Positions 4,853 through 24,378 of a stretch of 46,726 nucleotides of DNA are shown here, piece after piece (positions within the stretch are counted from its first letter, which is position 1; each line of letters starts with the position of its first letter). The stretch comes from a virus, in IMG/VR virus record IMGVR_UViG_3300035224_000093, positions 1 through 46,726 of that record; one strand, given 5' to 3'. The position numbers and the translations under genes were made by a program. The notes beneath the pieces are model-generated. The model was not told the origin of the DNA, made no database searches, and saw only the letters and a program-made list of their open reading frames with translations.

Positions 4853-4877
4853 AAAAAAAGCGCCCCTTTCGGAGCGC
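4853..4877 (-). terminator. Intrinsic terminator touching a start codon
   Basis: Minus-strand GCGCTCC, loop GAAA, GGGGCGC followed by seven T, then directly ATG of the 330-residue gene. The tetraloop and U-run make it a textbook terminator. Its GGGG strand is also the only plausible Shine-Dalgarno for that gene. Confidence 0.85.
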
Positions 4878-4899
4878 GAAAAATTCATTTAGTTAGTGT

Positions 4900-5535
4900 T
4901 TACTTCTTCTTACCGGGCTTGTAGTTCTTTTCTAACCAGCTACGTGGCTTAGTAGAACGACCAATCTTTAGTTCCTTAGCACCTGACTGACCTTTCTTAA
5001 CTTTCTTAGCCAGTTCAGGATGAGCTTTAGCCCATTGCTGCATAGGTGTCAGCTTCTTAGAGGAAGTTGCTGCAGGTTTAGCGGGTTTAGTTTTAGTAGG
5101 AGTACGAGTAGGAGTAGGAGTACGAGTAGGAGTGGGTTTCGGCTTATTATTAACAGGAGCAGGCCTTAGGATCTGGCTATTAGAGTTGCCACTTGACCGA
5201 CTTTTAGCCTTCTCACGAGCAGCACGTTCCTTCTTCAGCTGTGCATTGATTGCTGCAGCGTTGTTTGGTGTAGACTTAGTAGGTGTAGACTTAGTAGGTG
5301 TAGACTTAGTAGGTGTAGACTTAGTAGGTGTAGACTTACGATTCTCACCTTTTTTATAAGAACCAGCTGTGGAACCTGTGTAGATAGCGTTACCAGCTGA
5401 ACCTTTAGGGATTGACTTCCAATTACCGTTGCCGTCTGCAACTACTCGTTTACCGTTGAGTACTGCTCGTTGTCCCTTATGAACAACGTTTTTCTTAGCA
5501 GTGGGGCGTGATTGCCGATTACCTGATCTAGCCAT
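4900..5535 (-). CDS. Lys/Pro/Thr-rich basic repeat protein
   Basis: This 211-residue, strongly basic protein begins MARSGNRQSRPTAKKN. A TPTKS pentapeptide repeat (about five copies, encoded by a 15-bp minisatellite) and a Thr/Pro/Arg tract precede a C-terminal globular-looking stretch (LTPMQQWAKAHPELAKKVKK) and the basic end NYKPGKKK. The charge suggests nucleic acid binding, but no fold is recognisable. The start was chosen at MARSG, one nucleotide after the stop of the HNH gene (TAAAATG), instead of an upstream in-frame codon that would overlap that gene. It is followed by the terminator at 4853-4877. Confidence 0.7.
   Translation of the reverse strand: MARSGNRQSRPTAKKNVVHKGQRAVLNGKRVVADGNGNWKSIPKGSAGNAIYTGSTAGSYKKGENRKSTPTKSTPTKSTPTKSTPTKSTPNNAAAINAQLKKERAAREKAKSRSSGNSNSQILRPAPVNNKPKPTPTRTPTPTRTPTKTKPAKPAATSSKKLTPMQQWAKAHPELAKKVKKGQSGAKELKIGRSTKPRSWLEKNYKPGKKK
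5267..5338. repeat. 15-bp minisatellite inside the basic repeat protein gene
   Basis: The plus-strand unit GGTGTAGACTTAGTA is repeated about 4.8 times with no mismatches seen. It encodes the TPTKS repeats. Perfect copies suggest recent expansion, so length variation between relatives is likely. Confidence 0.9.
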
Positions 5536-5536
5536 T

Positions 5537-5863
5537 TTAATTAATGTGTTGAAGAATAAGTTGTTCTCGTTTAGTGATGCCAAACCGATCTCTCATGAAA
5601 GAGAGCCAGTTATTACTTCCTTTGGCTTGATTACATTTGACACAAGCAGGTACGAGGTTACTTGTGATATCTTTACCGCCAAAGGTTTTAGGGCGGACGT
5701 GGTCCAATGTAAGTTCTTGTAGGTCATAAGATTCTCCGCAATAGACACATGTACAATTAAAGTGCTCTTTAATAGCTCTTCTCCAGAGCTTTTTAGCCTC
5801 AGGACTTGTCATGGTTATTAGGTTATAAAGGTAATGGTTTGGTGTAGGAAGTAATGGTGTCAT
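5537..5863 (-). CDS. HNH endonuclease
   Basis: This protein of up to 108 residues has a typical zinc-ribbon HNH core: CVYCGESYDLQELTLDHVRP, then NLVPACVKCNQAKGS. This is the CxxC, DH, N and CxxCN pattern of the McrA/HNH family, which nicks or cuts DNA. The start is uncertain. The frame opens at 5863, eight bases after the preceding stop, but MTSPEAKKLWRR at 5812 fits the usual family start. HNH genes next to terminase genes are common in phages and may assist packaging cleavage or act as homing enzymes. Confidence 0.85.
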   Translation of the reverse strand: MTPLLPTPNHYLYNLITMTSPEAKKLWRRAIKEHFNCTCVYCGESYDLQELTLDHVRPKTFGGKDITSNLVPACVKCNQAKGSNNWLSFMRDRFGITKREQLILQHIN

Positions 5864-5871
5864 GTAAAGGT

Positions 5872-6120
5872 TTAACGCTTAGAGTTGGTTTTCTTAGCTC
5901 CCTTTTGCCTATTGGCTTTACGGGAAATGCATTTGAGATTATTGCGGTTGTTATTCATGGCGTTGTTGTCCTTATGGTCAACTTCTTTACCAGCACCGCA
6001 TTTCATCTTCCGCCTAGCGCGGGTACGCATCTTGTCCTTTACTTTGTTCTTTTTACGGTATGCTTTAATCTTGTCAGACCTAGCGGCATACTCTTTCTTG
6101 TAGTTACGTGCGCTTGCCAT
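5872..6120 (-). CDS. Small HNH-family endonuclease
   Basis: This 82-residue, very basic protein has KEVDHKDNNAMNNNRNNLKC, followed by SRKANRQKG. That is the H-N-N pattern of small phage HNH nucleases that lack zinc-binding cysteine pairs. The N-terminal half (NYKKEYAARSDKIKAYRKKN) is a positively charged helix likely to bind DNA. It overlaps the end of the terS-like gene by 17 nt and is followed directly by a second HNH gene of a different subtype. Tandem HNH genes beside terminase fit a packaging or homing role; I cannot tell which. Confidence 0.75.
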   Translation of the reverse strand: MASARNYKKEYAARSDKIKAYRKKNKVKDKMRTRARRKMKCGAGKEVDHKDNNAMNNNRNNLKCISRKANRQKGAKKTNSKR

Positions 6121-6349
6121 AAAGTCTTGTTTGCACTAATTCAGGATCTATTGTTGGCATTAGTTTTGCCAACTTATCTAGTGGGTTACCTTCAAAAGCA
6201 ATCCCACTAATATCATTTGTTTTGAGCCAATCACAAGCTGCTTTTAAGTCAGCCGTAGAAGCCTCACCGCTTTTCACACGGGCAAGGAATTCTTTGGTAA
6301 CTAAATTGTGCAACTCATTGAATTGGTCTTCCGTTGCCTTGTTTTTCAT
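6104..6349 (-). CDS. terS: Terminase small subunit / DNA maturase A (T7 gp18-like)
   Basis: This 81-residue protein has the layout of T7-group gp18 proteins: an N-terminal helix (EDQFNELHNLVTKEFLARV), the KSGEASTADLKAACDWLKTN segment, then NPLDKLAKLMPTIDPE. It recognises the concatemer and loads the large terminase. Size and position just upstream of terL (with two HNH and two other genes between) agree. Its first 34 coding nucleotides are duplicated at 7765-7798 on the far side of the tailspike gene, which suggests that gene was inserted at the terS start. Confidence 0.8.
   Translation of the reverse strand: MKNKATEDQFNELHNLVTKEFLARVKSGEASTADLKAACDWLKTNDISGIAFEGNPLDKLAKLMPTIDPELVQTRLYGKRT
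6316..6349. repeat. Direct repeat, terS-start copy
   Basis: The first 34 nt of terS match 7765-7798 with three mismatches, at nucleotides 18, 27 and 33 of the coding sequence. Two of the three changes are silent third-position differences seen in the shared MKNKATEDQFN peptide. Confidence 0.9.
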
Positions 6350-6355
6350 AACTTA

Positions 6356-7711
6356 TTAAGGATTCAATCTTGACCAGACATTGCCGACATCATTAGTTTT
6401 TACATAAAGACCAACATTACTCCTAATCATTACAGCACCTTTAGAAGCAGAAGCTGCTGGACTTCCTGCATCGTTGGGATCGTAAGCGCCAAAATAAAGA
6501 GCACTTCCACCAGAAGAGTCGCCTTGAATATGAACACCTTTATCAGCAGTCATTGACATCCCCCATGCTGGTTCCTGCGACCATCCATAAGACGAAAAAG
6601 TAGAAGAACCCCTAAAATCAGCTTTATAGTGCATTGAGTCATTACCCTGTAAATCAAGAGGGTTGCCATAGGTAGTTATGTTGCTAGACCTTTCATAACC
6701 TGTGACGCCAGCAGCAATAACGACAGGACCATCGGTTACCGGAAAATAACTTGTCCAGTTTGTCTTAAATATGTTATCTGCAATTTGTAGGGTATTACAT
6801 TTTTGGACATCGATAGCAGTAGCAGCACCACCACCAGCGAAAGTATTACCTCGTATTTGAACTTGAGAAATTGGTCGGGTGTTAGAAACAAACCTGATAC
6901 CACAACTTGTTGCATCAGGGCCAATATTTACCCAATTATTAAGGATTTTAATAGAACCTAAACTATTGGATTCAACTTCATCAGGTTCAAGCAGAATAGC
7001 TACAGCATTTGCATACGTTTGATCGACAATGTTACCACTAATTAGGATCTCTAAGCCTGCTTTAACAGCAATACCTGGGTTACTTGCCTGAATAGTGTTA
7101 TTAAAGATACGTGTGCCTTCAGGTTGAACAGAAGCACCATCTCTATTTAATTCAATACCCTTATCATTAAATTGCATCATACATCCAGTAATGTATGAAT
7201 TCATTAATGGACCAGAAGATTTAATGCAAGTTTCGTTAAAAAGAAATTGACAATCACTGATACAGGTTAAGTTGCTGTTACCTTGTATTGCTATTTTAAA
7301 TCTGGTAAACTGACAGTTACTGATAAAGGTTGGCCTATCATCCATCTCTTGTTCGTCAGCGATGCATGTTTTTGTGTAGCCACTAGTTTCATCTGTGGTG
7401 AAGGTAAGGCCATTGAAATTTACTTTTCCGCCAGGAACCCTAAACAGAGACCCAGAACCCGTGAATTTAATAATTGAGTTTGGGTATTGACCTTGAAAGG
7501 ATCTATTACTACTATCACTACTGGACGGCAGAGTTAAAGTGCTAGAGACAATGAATGTACCAGGCGGGATAATGAGATTCTTTTCCGCTGCCATAGCGGC
7601 CTGAAATGCAGCAGTGTCATCAGTTACTCCATCACCCTTAGCACCAAAATCTAAAATGCTAACTGCATTATTGGGCCAGTTAGCTAGGGCCCGTGTTTTT
7701 GTTCGTGTCAT
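6356..7711 (-). CDS. Tailspike-like protein with pectate-lyase-type beta-helix
   Basis: This 451-residue protein opens with the hallmark of the Pectate_lyase_3 family, VSILDFGAKGDGVTDDTAAF (about residues 18-37). Many short hydrophobic repeats follow (LTCISDCQF, ILNNWVNIG, QIRGNTFAGGG, LQIADNIFK), typical of a right-handed parallel beta-helix. The C-terminal part (about 350-451) is Gly/Ser-rich and may be a binding or trimerisation tip. Such proteins bind or cleave cell-surface polysaccharide. It sits between the tail fibre and terS, flanked by a duplicated terS start, so it looks like an acquired extra host-range module. Enzymatic activity cannot be shown here. Confidence 0.85.
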   Translation of the reverse strand: MTRTKTRALANWPNNAVSILDFGAKGDGVTDDTAAFQAAMAAEKNLIIPPGTFIVSSTLTLPSSSDSSNRSFQGQYPNSIIKFTGSGSLFRVPGGKVNFNGLTFTTDETSGYTKTCIADEQEMDDRPTFISNCQFTRFKIAIQGNSNLTCISDCQFLFNETCIKSSGPLMNSYITGCMMQFNDKGIELNRDGASVQPEGTRIFNNTIQASNPGIAVKAGLEILISGNIVDQTYANAVAILLEPDEVESNSLGSIKILNNWVNIGPDATSCGIRFVSNTRPISQVQIRGNTFAGGGAATAIDVQKCNTLQIADNIFKTNWTSYFPVTDGPVVIAAGVTGYERSSNITTYGNPLDLQGNDSMHYKADFRGSSTFSSYGWSQEPAWGMSMTADKGVHIQGDSSGGSALYFGAYDPNDAGSPAASASKGAVMIRSNVGLYVKTNDVGNVWSRLNP

Positions 7712-7729
7712 AATTTAAAGAGATACTAT

Positions 7730-7798
7730 TTAGCTGCGTCGATAAGGAATGAGGTCATAATATCCGTTGAACTGGTCTTCAGTTGCCTTGTTTTTCAT
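7730..7798 (-). pseudogene. terS 5'-end remnant
   Basis: A ribosome binding site (AAAAGGAAAATG) leads into a 22-codon frame reading MKNKATEDQFN, then GYYDLIPYRRS and stop. The first 11 residues are identical to TerS at 6349. It is best read as the original terS start, orphaned when the tailspike gene and a new terS start were inserted downstream of it. Confidence 0.8.
7765..7798. repeat. Direct repeat, remnant copy
   Basis: Partner of 6316-6349, 31 of 34 identical. The two copies bracket the 451-residue tailspike gene, so recombination between them would remove it precisely and restore one intact terS. Confidence 0.9.
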
Positions 7799-7805
7799 TT
7801 TCCTT

Positions 7806-10391
7806 TTAAGAAGTAGGGCTTGTGTTTAAGTTCGAGACAACTGCACCCGAGATAGCTGCGTATTGAGTCGTGACAACTAGCCGAGCGCCTGCGGAAGGGC
7901 TGCCACTAAGCACGATAAAAACTCGACGTTCTGTGTCGTAGTAGTAATTCATTTTGCTTAATGTAGAAGTCGGTCCATATTGAAGATTGAATGATGAAAT
8001 CTTATATCTCACAAGCTCAGTTGTCGGAGAAAGTGAATACTGAGAAGGAGTTACTAAAGTACCGCCGTTATCCCTATACCTCAGAGCGACACTAGAAAAC
8101 TTGGTCATATCGGCTTCATTCTCAATATGAAAACTCCAGCCAAGGATTAAACAATTTTCAGGCACTGCCTCAAAGAAATTCATGGTTCCAGTCTCTGTTC
8201 CATTAAATGCGATGATCGAAGTATGCTCTTTGATCATATCTAAGTTTGTACTTAAGGGTCTGGATGTATCAGTAAACATTCCAGACGAAACTCCTAGGCG
8301 ATAATTAGCGGCAATTGACGCTGTTGTTGCAATCTCAACATGCCGATAAGACTCTACGGTTCCGCCAACGGCTGTGTTCTCGATATTGAGTTTTGCTTCT
8401 GCTGATGCAGTGCTTGAGCTATATGATCCAGGAGCACCAACAACCTTTAGGTTTTCAACTTTAATTGCAGATTCTTGAGTTAGCTGCAGTATCCCCGTGT
8501 TGTTGGATGAATTGACATTGGACTTGACTCCATAAGTCTGAAAGATATTATTAACGGCAGTAACATTCTTGATAATACCTTTGCAGTATGACTCGTTTTG
8601 GATTGCAGCACGTTGGAAGTTCTCGACGTATACACCGTCAATCACGTAATCGTAACAATTACAGACAGAGATTGGAAAACCTTTGCTGCCTGATCCTGAG
8701 ATGCGATTGTAGTTTGCTCTAATATTTCGTATGTAACCCTGCTCTACTGCACGAATGAGAACACTAGAACGGTAAAGAGCAACATTCTCAATGCCTTGAT
8801 TTTTGCTATTTCTTAATTCAATAACCCTATCGTCTTCTTCAGTAGGTCTGGCGTCTGAGCCTTCATAGCGTTGAAATTTAATGTTTTTAAACACCACGTC
8901 TTTAGGTAACCCATCAGCACCCTGGCCTATAATTCTTCGATTATTATCTGTTGATTGAGAATCAGCATTAAATGCTTCTGGTACGCCTCGACTTAATGTG
9001 ATTGCGTTGCCAGTAATGTCTGTGATTTCAGCTGAATAATAATATATAGCCTCAGCATCATCGTAGGCATTGTCAATGATTCTAACTTGTACCTCTTCGC
9101 CTTCATAAAAATCAGATGCGTCAGCGACGTTATAAACCAAATCTCCAACTGCATAGGCACCAGTCAGAATGCTTTGGTTAGTGGTTGTTGAAATTGATCT
9201 AAAGGCGGTAGGACCTCCCCCCATTGAACCACCAGGAGCAACCCTAGCGTTAAAAATAATCTTACACATATTGCCATTAACAATAGTGCTGCTTCCTACG
9301 TAAGCGCCAGTGTCTCCCCATTGCGTACTCTGTGACGCATACATTAGATAGATTCTTTGCCCATTAAAATTAACAGTACCGCCACCCTGCGACTTAATTG
9401 CATCAAAAGCATTTTGTATGTACTGGCTGCAATTAACTGCTGCTGTATCAGTTCCAGCTGGGATAAAATCATCCACGTAAACAGTAGATTCCAACCGTTT
9501 TTGAAGCGTTTGCGACTCACCACCTGGATAGGTGTAGTTAACATCAGTCGCTTGACCAGCAGTAGCAATAGGAATGTTGTTGATACAATAAATTCCAACT
9601 ACATCACCTTCCAGTAATGGTTGAGTAACTGTAATCTTAGTAGTTGAGTTTACAATATAATCAACATCTTTTTGCTGTAAAGCACCATTAATATAAACCT
9701 GTACTAGACCAATTGAGATAGCAAATACTGGTACACCATTTACACCACTTTCAAGGACTGTATCACCTTGTGTAGCCGTGTAATAGACATAAGCATATGC
9801 AGTTGCTTCTGTGTTACCACCGAACTTCTCATCAACATAATACTTGTTAGCAGCATCAGTACCATCTACAGGATCAGGAACACCAGTCAGTTGGAAGTCA
9901 TCCATATCCAACGGACCTTCCATGGTGTCACCAGTAATCCTGACGAAACCTTGGTAGTTCTCAATGAACTGGTAGAGCCTGCCTTCTACATCTTGTAGTG
10001 CAAGTAGGATCTGAGTGAAGTTATTATTTAAATCCTGTGCACGAACTGGGGAACCAGGATAGAAATATGCCACCATCTGACAAATGTCAGTCTGGCGGAT
10101 AATAATTACATTACTGAAGTCATCAGGACGATCAGTAGGTGGCAGACCAGGAGCAACGCAGAATGTTAGATCGACCGGTGTGGAACTTGTAAAATAGTAT
10201 TCAGTTGTTGAACCACTACAGGATCCAGAGTTGGATACCTGAGTGCATAAATCAAACGTTTCAGTTGTCTCATTCCACAAATAGACTGCAATGTCTGAAG
10301 TCTCAATATAAGGGAATGCAAAGGAGTATTTAGTTGTTAAGCCATCACCCTGGTATAACGCAGGGGGTCGAGCGCATGTGTTGTTTGCCAT
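7806..10391 (-). CDS. Tail fibre (T7 gp17-like N-terminus, beta-helix body)
   Basis: This 861-residue protein has an N-terminal domain (about 1-165: YQGDGLTTKYSFAFPYIETS, DNNFTQILLALQDVEGRLYQ) that matches the T7 gp17 tail-attachment domain. A linker follows (LDMDDFQLTGVPDPVDGTDA), then a second adapter-like repeat. From about 305 a pectate-lyase-type beta-helix begins (FIPAGTDTAAVNCSQYIQNA, GGGTVNFNGQRIYLM). The C-terminal 130 residues form the probable receptor-binding tip. It attaches to the tail and recognises the cell surface. It follows the internal core genes, as in T7. The confident parts are the N-terminal domain and the position. Confidence 0.9.
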   Translation of the reverse strand: MANNTCARPPALYQGDGLTTKYSFAFPYIETSDIAVYLWNETTETFDLCTQVSNSGSCSGSTTEYYFTSSTPVDLTFCVAPGLPPTDRPDDFSNVIIIRQTDICQMVAYFYPGSPVRAQDLNNNFTQILLALQDVEGRLYQFIENYQGFVRITGDTMEGPLDMDDFQLTGVPDPVDGTDAANKYYVDEKFGGNTEATAYAYVYYTATQGDTVLESGVNGVPVFAISIGLVQVYINGALQQKDVDYIVNSTTKITVTQPLLEGDVVGIYCINNIPIATAGQATDVNYTYPGGESQTLQKRLESTVYVDDFIPAGTDTAAVNCSQYIQNAFDAIKSQGGGTVNFNGQRIYLMYASQSTQWGDTGAYVGSSTIVNGNMCKIIFNARVAPGGSMGGGPTAFRSISTTTNQSILTGAYAVGDLVYNVADASDFYEGEEVQVRIIDNAYDDAEAIYYYSAEITDITGNAITLSRGVPEAFNADSQSTDNNRRIIGQGADGLPKDVVFKNIKFQRYEGSDARPTEEDDRVIELRNSKNQGIENVALYRSSVLIRAVEQGYIRNIRANYNRISGSGSKGFPISVCNCYDYVIDGVYVENFQRAAIQNESYCKGIIKNVTAVNNIFQTYGVKSNVNSSNNTGILQLTQESAIKVENLKVVGAPGSYSSSTASAEAKLNIENTAVGGTVESYRHVEIATTASIAANYRLGVSSGMFTDTSRPLSTNLDMIKEHTSIIAFNGTETGTMNFFEAVPENCLILGWSFHIENEADMTKFSSVALRYRDNGGTLVTPSQYSLSPTTELVRYKISSFNLQYGPTSTLSKMNYYYDTERRVFIVLSGSPSAGARLVVTTQYAAISGAVVSNLNTSPTS

Positions 10392-23132: not shown

Positions 23133-23140
23133 TTAGGGTA
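23099..23140 (-). ncRNA. tRNA T-arm-like minihelix upstream of capsid gene
   Basis: Minus strand: outer stem TACCC/GGGTA (5 bp), an 11-nt connector, a T-arm-like hairpin of up to 6 bp with the 7-nt loop TTCGATT, and a 2-nt connector. The stop codon of the 51-residue gene is the first part of the connector. The layout matches the element before psbA (27425-27464). It could be a processing signal, a tRNA-derived remnant or a chance fold, but the second copy argues against chance. Confidence 0.5.
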
Positions 23141-23288
23141 GTAATGCTATTCGTACTTTAGCGACGAGAAGATCATCTAAAGGGTTGTCTGTTTTCTTAG
23201 CTAAAGCTACTAAAAGGTCAATAACTAATTTCCTGACACTACGAGAAGATACAAATTGAAGCAAGATTGGTCTAATTAAAGTGATCAT
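23133..23288 (-). CDS. Small amphipathic protein of the lysis-like cassette
   Basis: This 51-residue protein (MITLIRPILLQFVSSRSVRK start, then LVIDLLVALAKKTDNPLDDL) has two hydrophobic helices and an ATGA overlap with the preceding gene. The pattern suits a membrane-associated peptide such as a small holin-like or accessory protein, but no family is recognised. Its stop codon lies in the T-arm-like element that precedes the capsid gene. Confidence 0.65.
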   Translation of the reverse strand: MITLIRPILLQFVSSRSVRKLVIDLLVALAKKTDNPLDDLLVAKVRIALLP

Positions 23289-23524
23289 GGTTTTTGAATA
23301 ATAATGTTATCAAGCTTGGTCTCTATTCGTACCATGTGAGTTTCAACTCGTTCTATGATTGTATTAAAACAATCTTTGGATACGTAATCCTTAGCAACTG
23401 ACAACTCAATGGCATCTACTTTTTTATCTAAAATGTCTAATTGCTTGCTATATCTAGAAGTAAGAACTCCTAACCCAGTTAAGGTTGCTATAACACTTGT
23501 TACAATTACTTCTAAAAAAGGCAT
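23285..23524 (-). CDS. Membrane-anchored coiled-coil protein, holin- or spanin-like candidate
   Basis: This 79-residue protein has an N-terminal transmembrane segment (FLEVIVTSVIATLTGLGVLT) followed by a heptad-like helix (RYSKQLDILDKKVDAIELSV and VETHMVRIETKLDNIIIQ). Type II membrane proteins of this build serve as class-II holins or inner-membrane spanins in other phages. It lies 12 nt after a cysteine-peptidase gene and near a lipobox protein, so a lysis role is inferred. Confidence 0.6.
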   Translation of the reverse strand: MPFLEVIVTSVIATLTGLGVLTSRYSKQLDILDKKVDAIELSVAKDYVSKDCFNTIIERVETHMVRIETKLDNIIIQKP

Positions 23525-23536
23525 GGTATACAGGTA

Positions 23537-24202
23537 TTAAGGTTTAACTATCATGCACCAACCATCGTTCTTCCCACCTGGTGACCATCGAGGTTCCCAG
23601 TTCTTATAGGAATACTTGAGGCTTGCACCATTCAAGTTGTTTGTATAACCACCACTGACAAGGTTAGCCTCACCGTTGGGGTCATTCATAATTACACCAC
23701 TTTCATAAGTGCCAATAACCACACTCCAGTGACCGCCGCCACTAGGAGAGCTTAATGGCCCGTGATGCAGCCAACCAACACCAACAGGGTGGCCATTATC
23801 AATCTCATTCTGGAGTGTCTGAACGGATGCATTAGTTACAAAGGATGGGTTAAGTCCTAAGGAACGAAGAGCTGCTAACTGTGCAGATGCATCAGTTGTA
23901 TCTCCATACTTAGAACGGATACGGTTATATTCATCATCGTTCTGTACCTTGCCCCAATACATAGCAATCATTGCCATGGATGAGGAGAAGCATTCACGAT
24001 AACCGGTTCCAGAAGCATTATCATTCTGTGATTGATACTCCACTACAAGTGGATTAGCAACTAGACCTTCTGGTTTAGCTCTATATTTTTGTCCGAAAAT
24101 CTCAAGGGTAGTAGGGTCTACCTGTGTCTGCAGCCATTCAAAGGCTTCTACTTGCTGACTCTCTTCTTTGTAGTAGAGAGCAGCATCTGTAAGTTTAATC
24201 AT
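23537..24202 (-). CDS. C39-like cysteine peptidase (putative endolysin or virion peptidase)
   Basis: This 221-residue protein is of the Peptidase_C39_2 type. The nucleophile is in GYRECFSSSMAMIAMYWG (Cys about 71), the catalytic His in GGGHWSVVIGTYE (His about 158), and the Asn/Asp in IMNDPNGE (about 173-174). The N-terminal 50 residues form a separate small domain. It probably cleaves peptide cross-links, and with neighbouring membrane proteins and a lipoprotein it could form the lysis set, since no T7 gp3.5-type amidase is seen elsewhere. The ATG overlaps the previous stop (ATGA). Confidence 0.75.
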   Translation of the reverse strand: MIKLTDAALYYKEESQQVEAFEWLQTQVDPTTLEIFGQKYRAKPEGLVANPLVVEYQSQNDNASGTGYRECFSSSMAMIAMYWGKVQNDDEYNRIRSKYGDTTDASAQLAALRSLGLNPSFVTNASVQTLQNEIDNGHPVGVGWLHHGPLSSPSGGGHWSVVIGTYESGVIMNDPNGEANLVSGGYTNNLNGASLKYSYKNWEPRWSPGGKNDGWCMIVKP

Positions 24203-24378
24203 TTTTCAGCTGCGTATAGTGCAAAACTTTGGGCGGTAATATATGTCATGAGTTCAGACACCTTAGATCCAGTACATTTATCTGAGTTAGTACTAAAGCA
24301 TCCAATTAGAACTCCAGCCATTATTAAAAGCTGGATGGAAATCACTCCGGCAACCAATCTAAAGGCTGCCTTTTTCAT
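24199..24378 (-). CDS. Small lipoprotein-like membrane protein
   Basis: This 59-residue protein has a Lys-rich start (MKKAAFRLVAG), a hydrophobic core (VISIQLLIMAGVLIG) and Cys 27 in a lipobox-like LIGC, followed by Ser/Thr/Asn-rich sequence. It overlaps the gene before (TAATG) and after (ATGA), so it is translationally coupled to the cysteine peptidase. An outer-membrane spanin (Rz1-like) is one possibility, though Pro enrichment is lacking; a plain anchored protein is the alternative. Confidence 0.6.
   Translation of the reverse strand: MKKAAFRLVAGVISIQLLIMAGVLIGCFSTNSDKCTGSKVSELMTYITAQSFALYAAEK

Follow-up and report, generated by a model that had tools for sequence, protein, structure and literature searches.

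The start of the small terminase gene, terS, occurs twice in the phage genome described here, once at the head of the gene itself and once on the far side of a tailspike gene, and the question raised by this locus is how a fragment of one gene came to stand next to another. The window, meaning the whole stretch of 46,726 nucleotides that was analysed (IMG/VR record IMGVR_UViG_3300035224_000093), is the genome of a T7-like cyanophage with psbA and with genes for a phage RNA polymerase, capsid, nozzle and large terminase, and its hosts are presumably marine cyanobacteria. Read in the coding direction, with everything on the minus strand, a tail fibre is followed by a gap of 94 nt, a spike, 6 nt, terS and two HNH genes. 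The features of this region are:

7806 to 10391, minus strand: primary tail fibre of 861 amino acids with a T7 gp17-like N-terminus (PF03906, 2.4e-4; phrog_2710, 7.9e-23; PDB profile match)
7799 to 7805, minus strand: AAGGAAA, resembling a ribosome binding site and preceding the terS stub (from the sequence)
7765 to 7798, minus strand: terS-start stub, most simply the first 11 codons of a foreign terS allele (31 of 34 nt identical to 6316-6349)
7726 to 7758, minus strand: endolysin-start stub, MTSFLIDAAK and then TAG (matches the start of the intact endolysin gene in the relatives L081 and L169)
7596 to 7711, minus strand: conserved spike start (MTRTKTRALANWPNNAVSxLDFGA...GDGVTDD), common to otherwise unrelated spikes (sequence comparison)
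6356 to 7711, minus strand: accessory tailspike of 451 amino acids, a pectate-lyase-like beta-helix (PF12708, 1.1e-11; tail-spike PHROGs)
6104 to 6349, minus strand: intact terS (terminase small subunit) of 81 amino acids (PF11123, 6.9e-18; PHROG 891)
5527 to 6350, minus strand: block 96.5% identical to the related contig L083, running from the terS start codon; a recombination boundary (sequence comparison)
5872 to 6120, minus strand: small HNH_3 gene of 82 amino acids, overlapping the end of terS (PF13392, 3.9e-6)
5537 to 5863, minus strand: HNH endonuclease of 108 amino acids, typical of T7-like cyanophages (PF14279, 1.4e-13) and annotated at the same place in P-SSP7, S-RIP2 and others

Downstream of terS, a conserved terminator-like sequence, CGCGCTCCGAAAGGGGCGCTTTTTTT, was found at the start of one of the genes in this direction in several cyanophages, L003, L004, L035, L037, L065 and L074, and at about 4860-4888 in the window.

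The repetition itself is beyond doubt. The original prediction, made from the window alone, had placed a copy of the first 34 nt of terS (6316-6349) at 7765-7798 with 31 of 34 positions identical, a ribosome binding site (AAGGAAA directly upstream of the outer copy) and a pectate-lyase-type gene of 451 residues between the repeats, and all of this was correct on recheck. A 34-mer allowing both forms matches twice in the window and not once in 100 dinucleotide shuffles. The outer copy agrees with terS for 11 codons and then continues as an open reading frame of 22 amino acids that ends at about 7730. From this arrangement it had been proposed that insertion of the spike into the start of terS duplicated about 34 nt, and that recombination between the two copies can remove the spike again. 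The repeats do flank the interval, and recombination between them would restore an intact terS behind the ribosome binding site, but the evidence set out below makes this course of events improbable.

The first objection comes from the terS stub. Three positions set it apart from the resident terS, all of them synonymous third-codon positions, a pattern with a chance of about 0.4% under unconstrained drift according to a simple count. Its 22-nt core is an exact match to terS of L168, S-RIP2, L194 and L260. Because the differences are only synonymous and the core matches the terS alleles of other cyanophages, the stub appears to come from another lineage, most simply as the start of that lineage's working terS.

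The second objection is a further gene-start remnant, overlooked in the original prediction, which lies just past the terS remnant in the same gap. This piece, ATGACCTCATTCCTTATCGACGCAGCTAAATAG (7758-7726), is the start of an endolysin gene that is kept intact upstream of terS in L081 and in L169/L170. The gap is thus made up of two truncated gene starts one after the other, first the terS piece and then that of the endolysin, which separates the terS stub from the spike. Intact arrangements of this kind are known: cyanophage P60 has an endolysin between fibre and terS, L169 has an endolysin before terS, and L081 has fibre, spike, endolysin, a spanin-like gene and terS, all intact, which is the proposed source arrangement. 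The window's own lysis genes are found at 23.1-24.4 kb, where a candidate C39-peptidase-like endolysin (23537-24202) is accompanied by a spanin-like gene and a small gene. Unlike the lysis genes of P60 and L081, which stand between fibre and terS, this group (23136-24378) is located between capsid and psbA and thus resembles a relocated lysis cassette.

The third objection comes from the relatives that carry the same family of spikes. The closest, L083, is 96.5% identical to the window over 825 nt, a stretch that opens one base ahead of the terS start codon and takes in terS and the HNH genes, and 88.6% identical over 166 nt spanning the endolysin stub and the spike start, while the body of its spike has no match to that of the window. 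Its spike lies between two endolysin stubs (31 nt, 90% identical) instead of two terS stubs, and in L082 both terS and endolysin stubs are found on both sides of the spike. L171 has a terS-endolysin composite like that of the window (72 nt at 88.9%); there it follows a different spike and precedes another gene, whereas in the window it lies upstream of the spike. Found before one spike and after another, the composite did not arise through a landing of the window's spike in terS. The identity of the allele and the composite terS-endolysin junction also led to the rejection of a tandem duplication of terS caused by insertion of the spike.

What is left of the original idea of a host-range gene landing in the start of terS is the mobility of the spike, an accessory gene that comes and goes in the interval from fibre to terS; in L083 a different spike body occupies the same site. 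Landing and duplication do not fit with the foreign allele, the endolysin stub and the junction in L171. In principle the spike could be excised cleanly through the 34-nt repeats, with terS restored, but the two copies agree exactly over no more than 17 nt at a stretch, and a search of the IMG/VR contigs for the excised form gave no contig with the exact junction of fibre to terS without the spike. Nor did any arrangement of fibre and terS without an insert appear among the relatives or the IMG/VR contigs, and a fibre ending within 700 nt of terS was seen in no relative with a recognisable fibre. Phase variation of the spike, also suggested at the outset, is unsupported.

The spikes show a sharp division between a conserved start and a variable body. 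Judged by its sequence, the spike of the window has a beta-helix fold of depolymerase type (PF12708, 1.1e-11, and tail-spike PHROGs, with PDB matches to beta-helix enzymes and to a preneck appendage). Six spikes, from the window and five IMG/VR contigs, have about 45 N-terminal residues in common and little or nothing beyond. Among four of them 34 of 45 N-terminal positions are invariant and the bodies are unrelated, and no relative of the body of the window's spike was found in phage records or IMG/VR. An N-terminal spike search with a generic beta-helix motif returned mostly unrelated spikes. The conserved start probably includes an attachment peptide. The adjoining fibre (7806-10391) is a first receptor-binding protein (RBP) with a T7-like anchor, with a T7 gp17-type N-terminus and a PDB profile match to T7 gp17 and other podovirus fibres. 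It has a shared domain around residues 200-270, a region to which no solved structure assigns a docking domain of the T4gp10-like kind or any other.

The entry into the beta-helix of the accessory spike (7595-7663 in the window, 37-105 in L083, 119-183 in L082 and the reverse complement of 1694-1753 in L168) is 83-87% identical in DNA to the matching stretch of the primary fibre of relatives, and therefore offers homology for exchange of bodies between fibre and spike. In L081 (3-599) a 42-nt tandem repeat (ALQSIQALQST) closes the fibre, which lacks a beta-helix and is directly followed by the accessory spike, as if this fibre were an anchor only.

The stubs may have been retained because they are useful, either as translated leaders or start signals that couple translation of fibre and spike, or as recognised recombination sites. 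The endolysin stub occurs in five places in well-conserved form, its changes being mostly synonymous, and a good ribosome binding site precedes the terS stub, whereas none is obvious at the spike start. On the other hand, the terS stub has lost its start codon in L171, the spikes of L168 and L081 have no stub upstream, and the coding strand is without a promoter-like or terminator-like site. A retained function is therefore very unlikely to explain the stubs. That the remnant is an independent conserved small gene, an outcome that would have spoken against the original prediction, was also ruled out, by the loss of the start in L171 and the absence of an upstream stub from almost all of 160-166 other terS loci.

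Scans for stubs point to the same restricted distribution. When segments of terS were searched for a second copy near terS, only the start segment was found, at 3 loci per scan, and interior segments gave 0 (160-166 distinct terS loci). In a scan of all genes, start windows gave 180 places, early windows 195 and middle windows 262; this broad scan is too noisy to reveal a start bias in general, and no such claim is made. Outside open reading frames of at least 60 amino acids, the stubs were starts of terS or endolysin in spike-family contigs and in Synechococcus phage 7B11-B, and the other hits were terminators or short genes. Gene-start stubs are thus almost confined to contigs with the window's spike family, phage 7B11-B being the exception.

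This exception suggests another origin. In the cultured phage 7B11-B (L286, 4540-5060), a 9-codon terS stub, ATGAAAAAGAAAAAAGCAACTGAAGAC, and a stop are followed by an endonuclease VII gene and an intact, diverged terS, while WH11-B and S-B28 (L284 and L285) have the same upstream sequence with terS directly there, that is, an empty site. Homing with replacement of the target gene is a possible reading of 7B11-B. In L168, likewise, a fibre, a few nt and a spike precede a terS stub of 23 nt, after which come an endonuclease VII gene (PF02945, 1.3e-25) and terS, an order that is suggestive, though no relative with an empty site accompanies it. Cyanophage S-PM2 encodes F-CphI, a homing endonuclease that has been characterised and that carries an endonuclease VII-type catalytic motif (PMC6083498), and homing genes often cluster near terminase genes (PMC10448857). 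In standing at the start of terS (7B11-B and L168) and in having relatives with an empty site (7B11-B), the endonuclease VII genes resemble such free-standing homing endonucleases but differ in that their insertions leave a 5' stub of the target gene. In enterobacterial T7-like phages (L291-L297), genes for endonuclease VII are tightly packed between those for internal virion proteins or lie a short way ahead of the RNA polymerase gene.

The case of 7B11-B together with F-CphI and the position of homing genes near terminase makes homing a plausible origin of such stubs. Endonuclease VII-type genes would then target the start of terS, where cleavage by such an enzyme is putative, leave a 5' stub and bring their own terS, and the spike lineage would have inherited stubs after loss of the endonuclease. 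However, a nuclease gene at the insertion and a relative with an empty site are found together in 7B11-B and not in the window, where the insert is a spike and no such nuclease flanks the stub. The neighbourhood of terS yielded no endonuclease VII gene in the window, L171 or the short contigs L082 and L083; the stubs in these four stop at other codons, and the endolysin stubs have no nuclease partner. Homing may have started the stub-bearing interval, but as the general explanation of the stubs it is doubtful.

Exchange between relatives is the preferred explanation of the stubs. Comparison of the sequences reveals swapping of spike bodies at a fixed place, joins at gene starts, a stub of foreign type and a composite junction shared with another contig, and the interval between fibre and terS is probably a site of repeated exchange among co-infecting relatives, where spikes are swapped and joins at gene starts leave stubs behind. 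In a mixed infection, the left parent would contribute the fibre together with the beginning of the gene after it, and a module and an intact terS would come from the right parent, with the surviving joins located at gene starts. The stubs would stay short if longer duplications recombine away or overfill the capsid. The repeats around the spikes (the terS start in the window, the endolysin start in L083 and both in L082) could serve as homology for later swaps or rare loss, and the conserved spike start could do the same. We can only infer the order of these events, because the spike-family sample consists of five related IMG/VR contigs, three of them about 4 kb long. A more far-reaching version, in which the stubs are reusable short homology sockets and a lytic marine lineage swaps tailspike cassettes bounded by terS or endolysin starts, a system seeded at terS by endonuclease VII homing and lacking a dedicated recombinase, seems rather unlikely.

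An exchangeable second spike has counterparts in the systems of Autographiviridae with two RBPs, anchor and branch, such as Klebsiella KP32viruses and K1-5 (PMC6872550), where a T7-like anchored fibre is likewise followed by a spike with a depolymerase fold. KP32viruses have a second RBP with a conserved N-terminal peptide of 29 amino acids and swapped enzymatic domains (PMC6872550). The spike of the window, here known by sequence, is similar in that it lacks an anchor domain and joins a replaceable body to a short N-terminal peptide that is conserved. In contrast to these systems, the window belongs to a presumed phage of cyanobacteria, the conserved peptide is a different one (MTRTKTRALANWPNN), and the spike is located between fibre and terS amid gene-start stubs. 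By analogy with KP32-like systems, it is a putative depolymerase that would dock on the fibre.

In metaviromic islands of marine phages, genes for host recognition and for the terminase small subunit are among the commonest in under-recruiting islands (PMC3909814). Those islands were defined by read recruitment, whereas the join points in the window are resolved to the base. Modular exchange itself is already known, and what is new is an unusually legible set of gene-start scars. The cultured phages 7B11-B, WH11-B and S-B28 are those in which an insertion of endonuclease VII type at the terS start is directly testable. For T7-like cyanophages as a group, the locus gives a view at base resolution of where host-recognition genes are traded, and a readable record of past joins.
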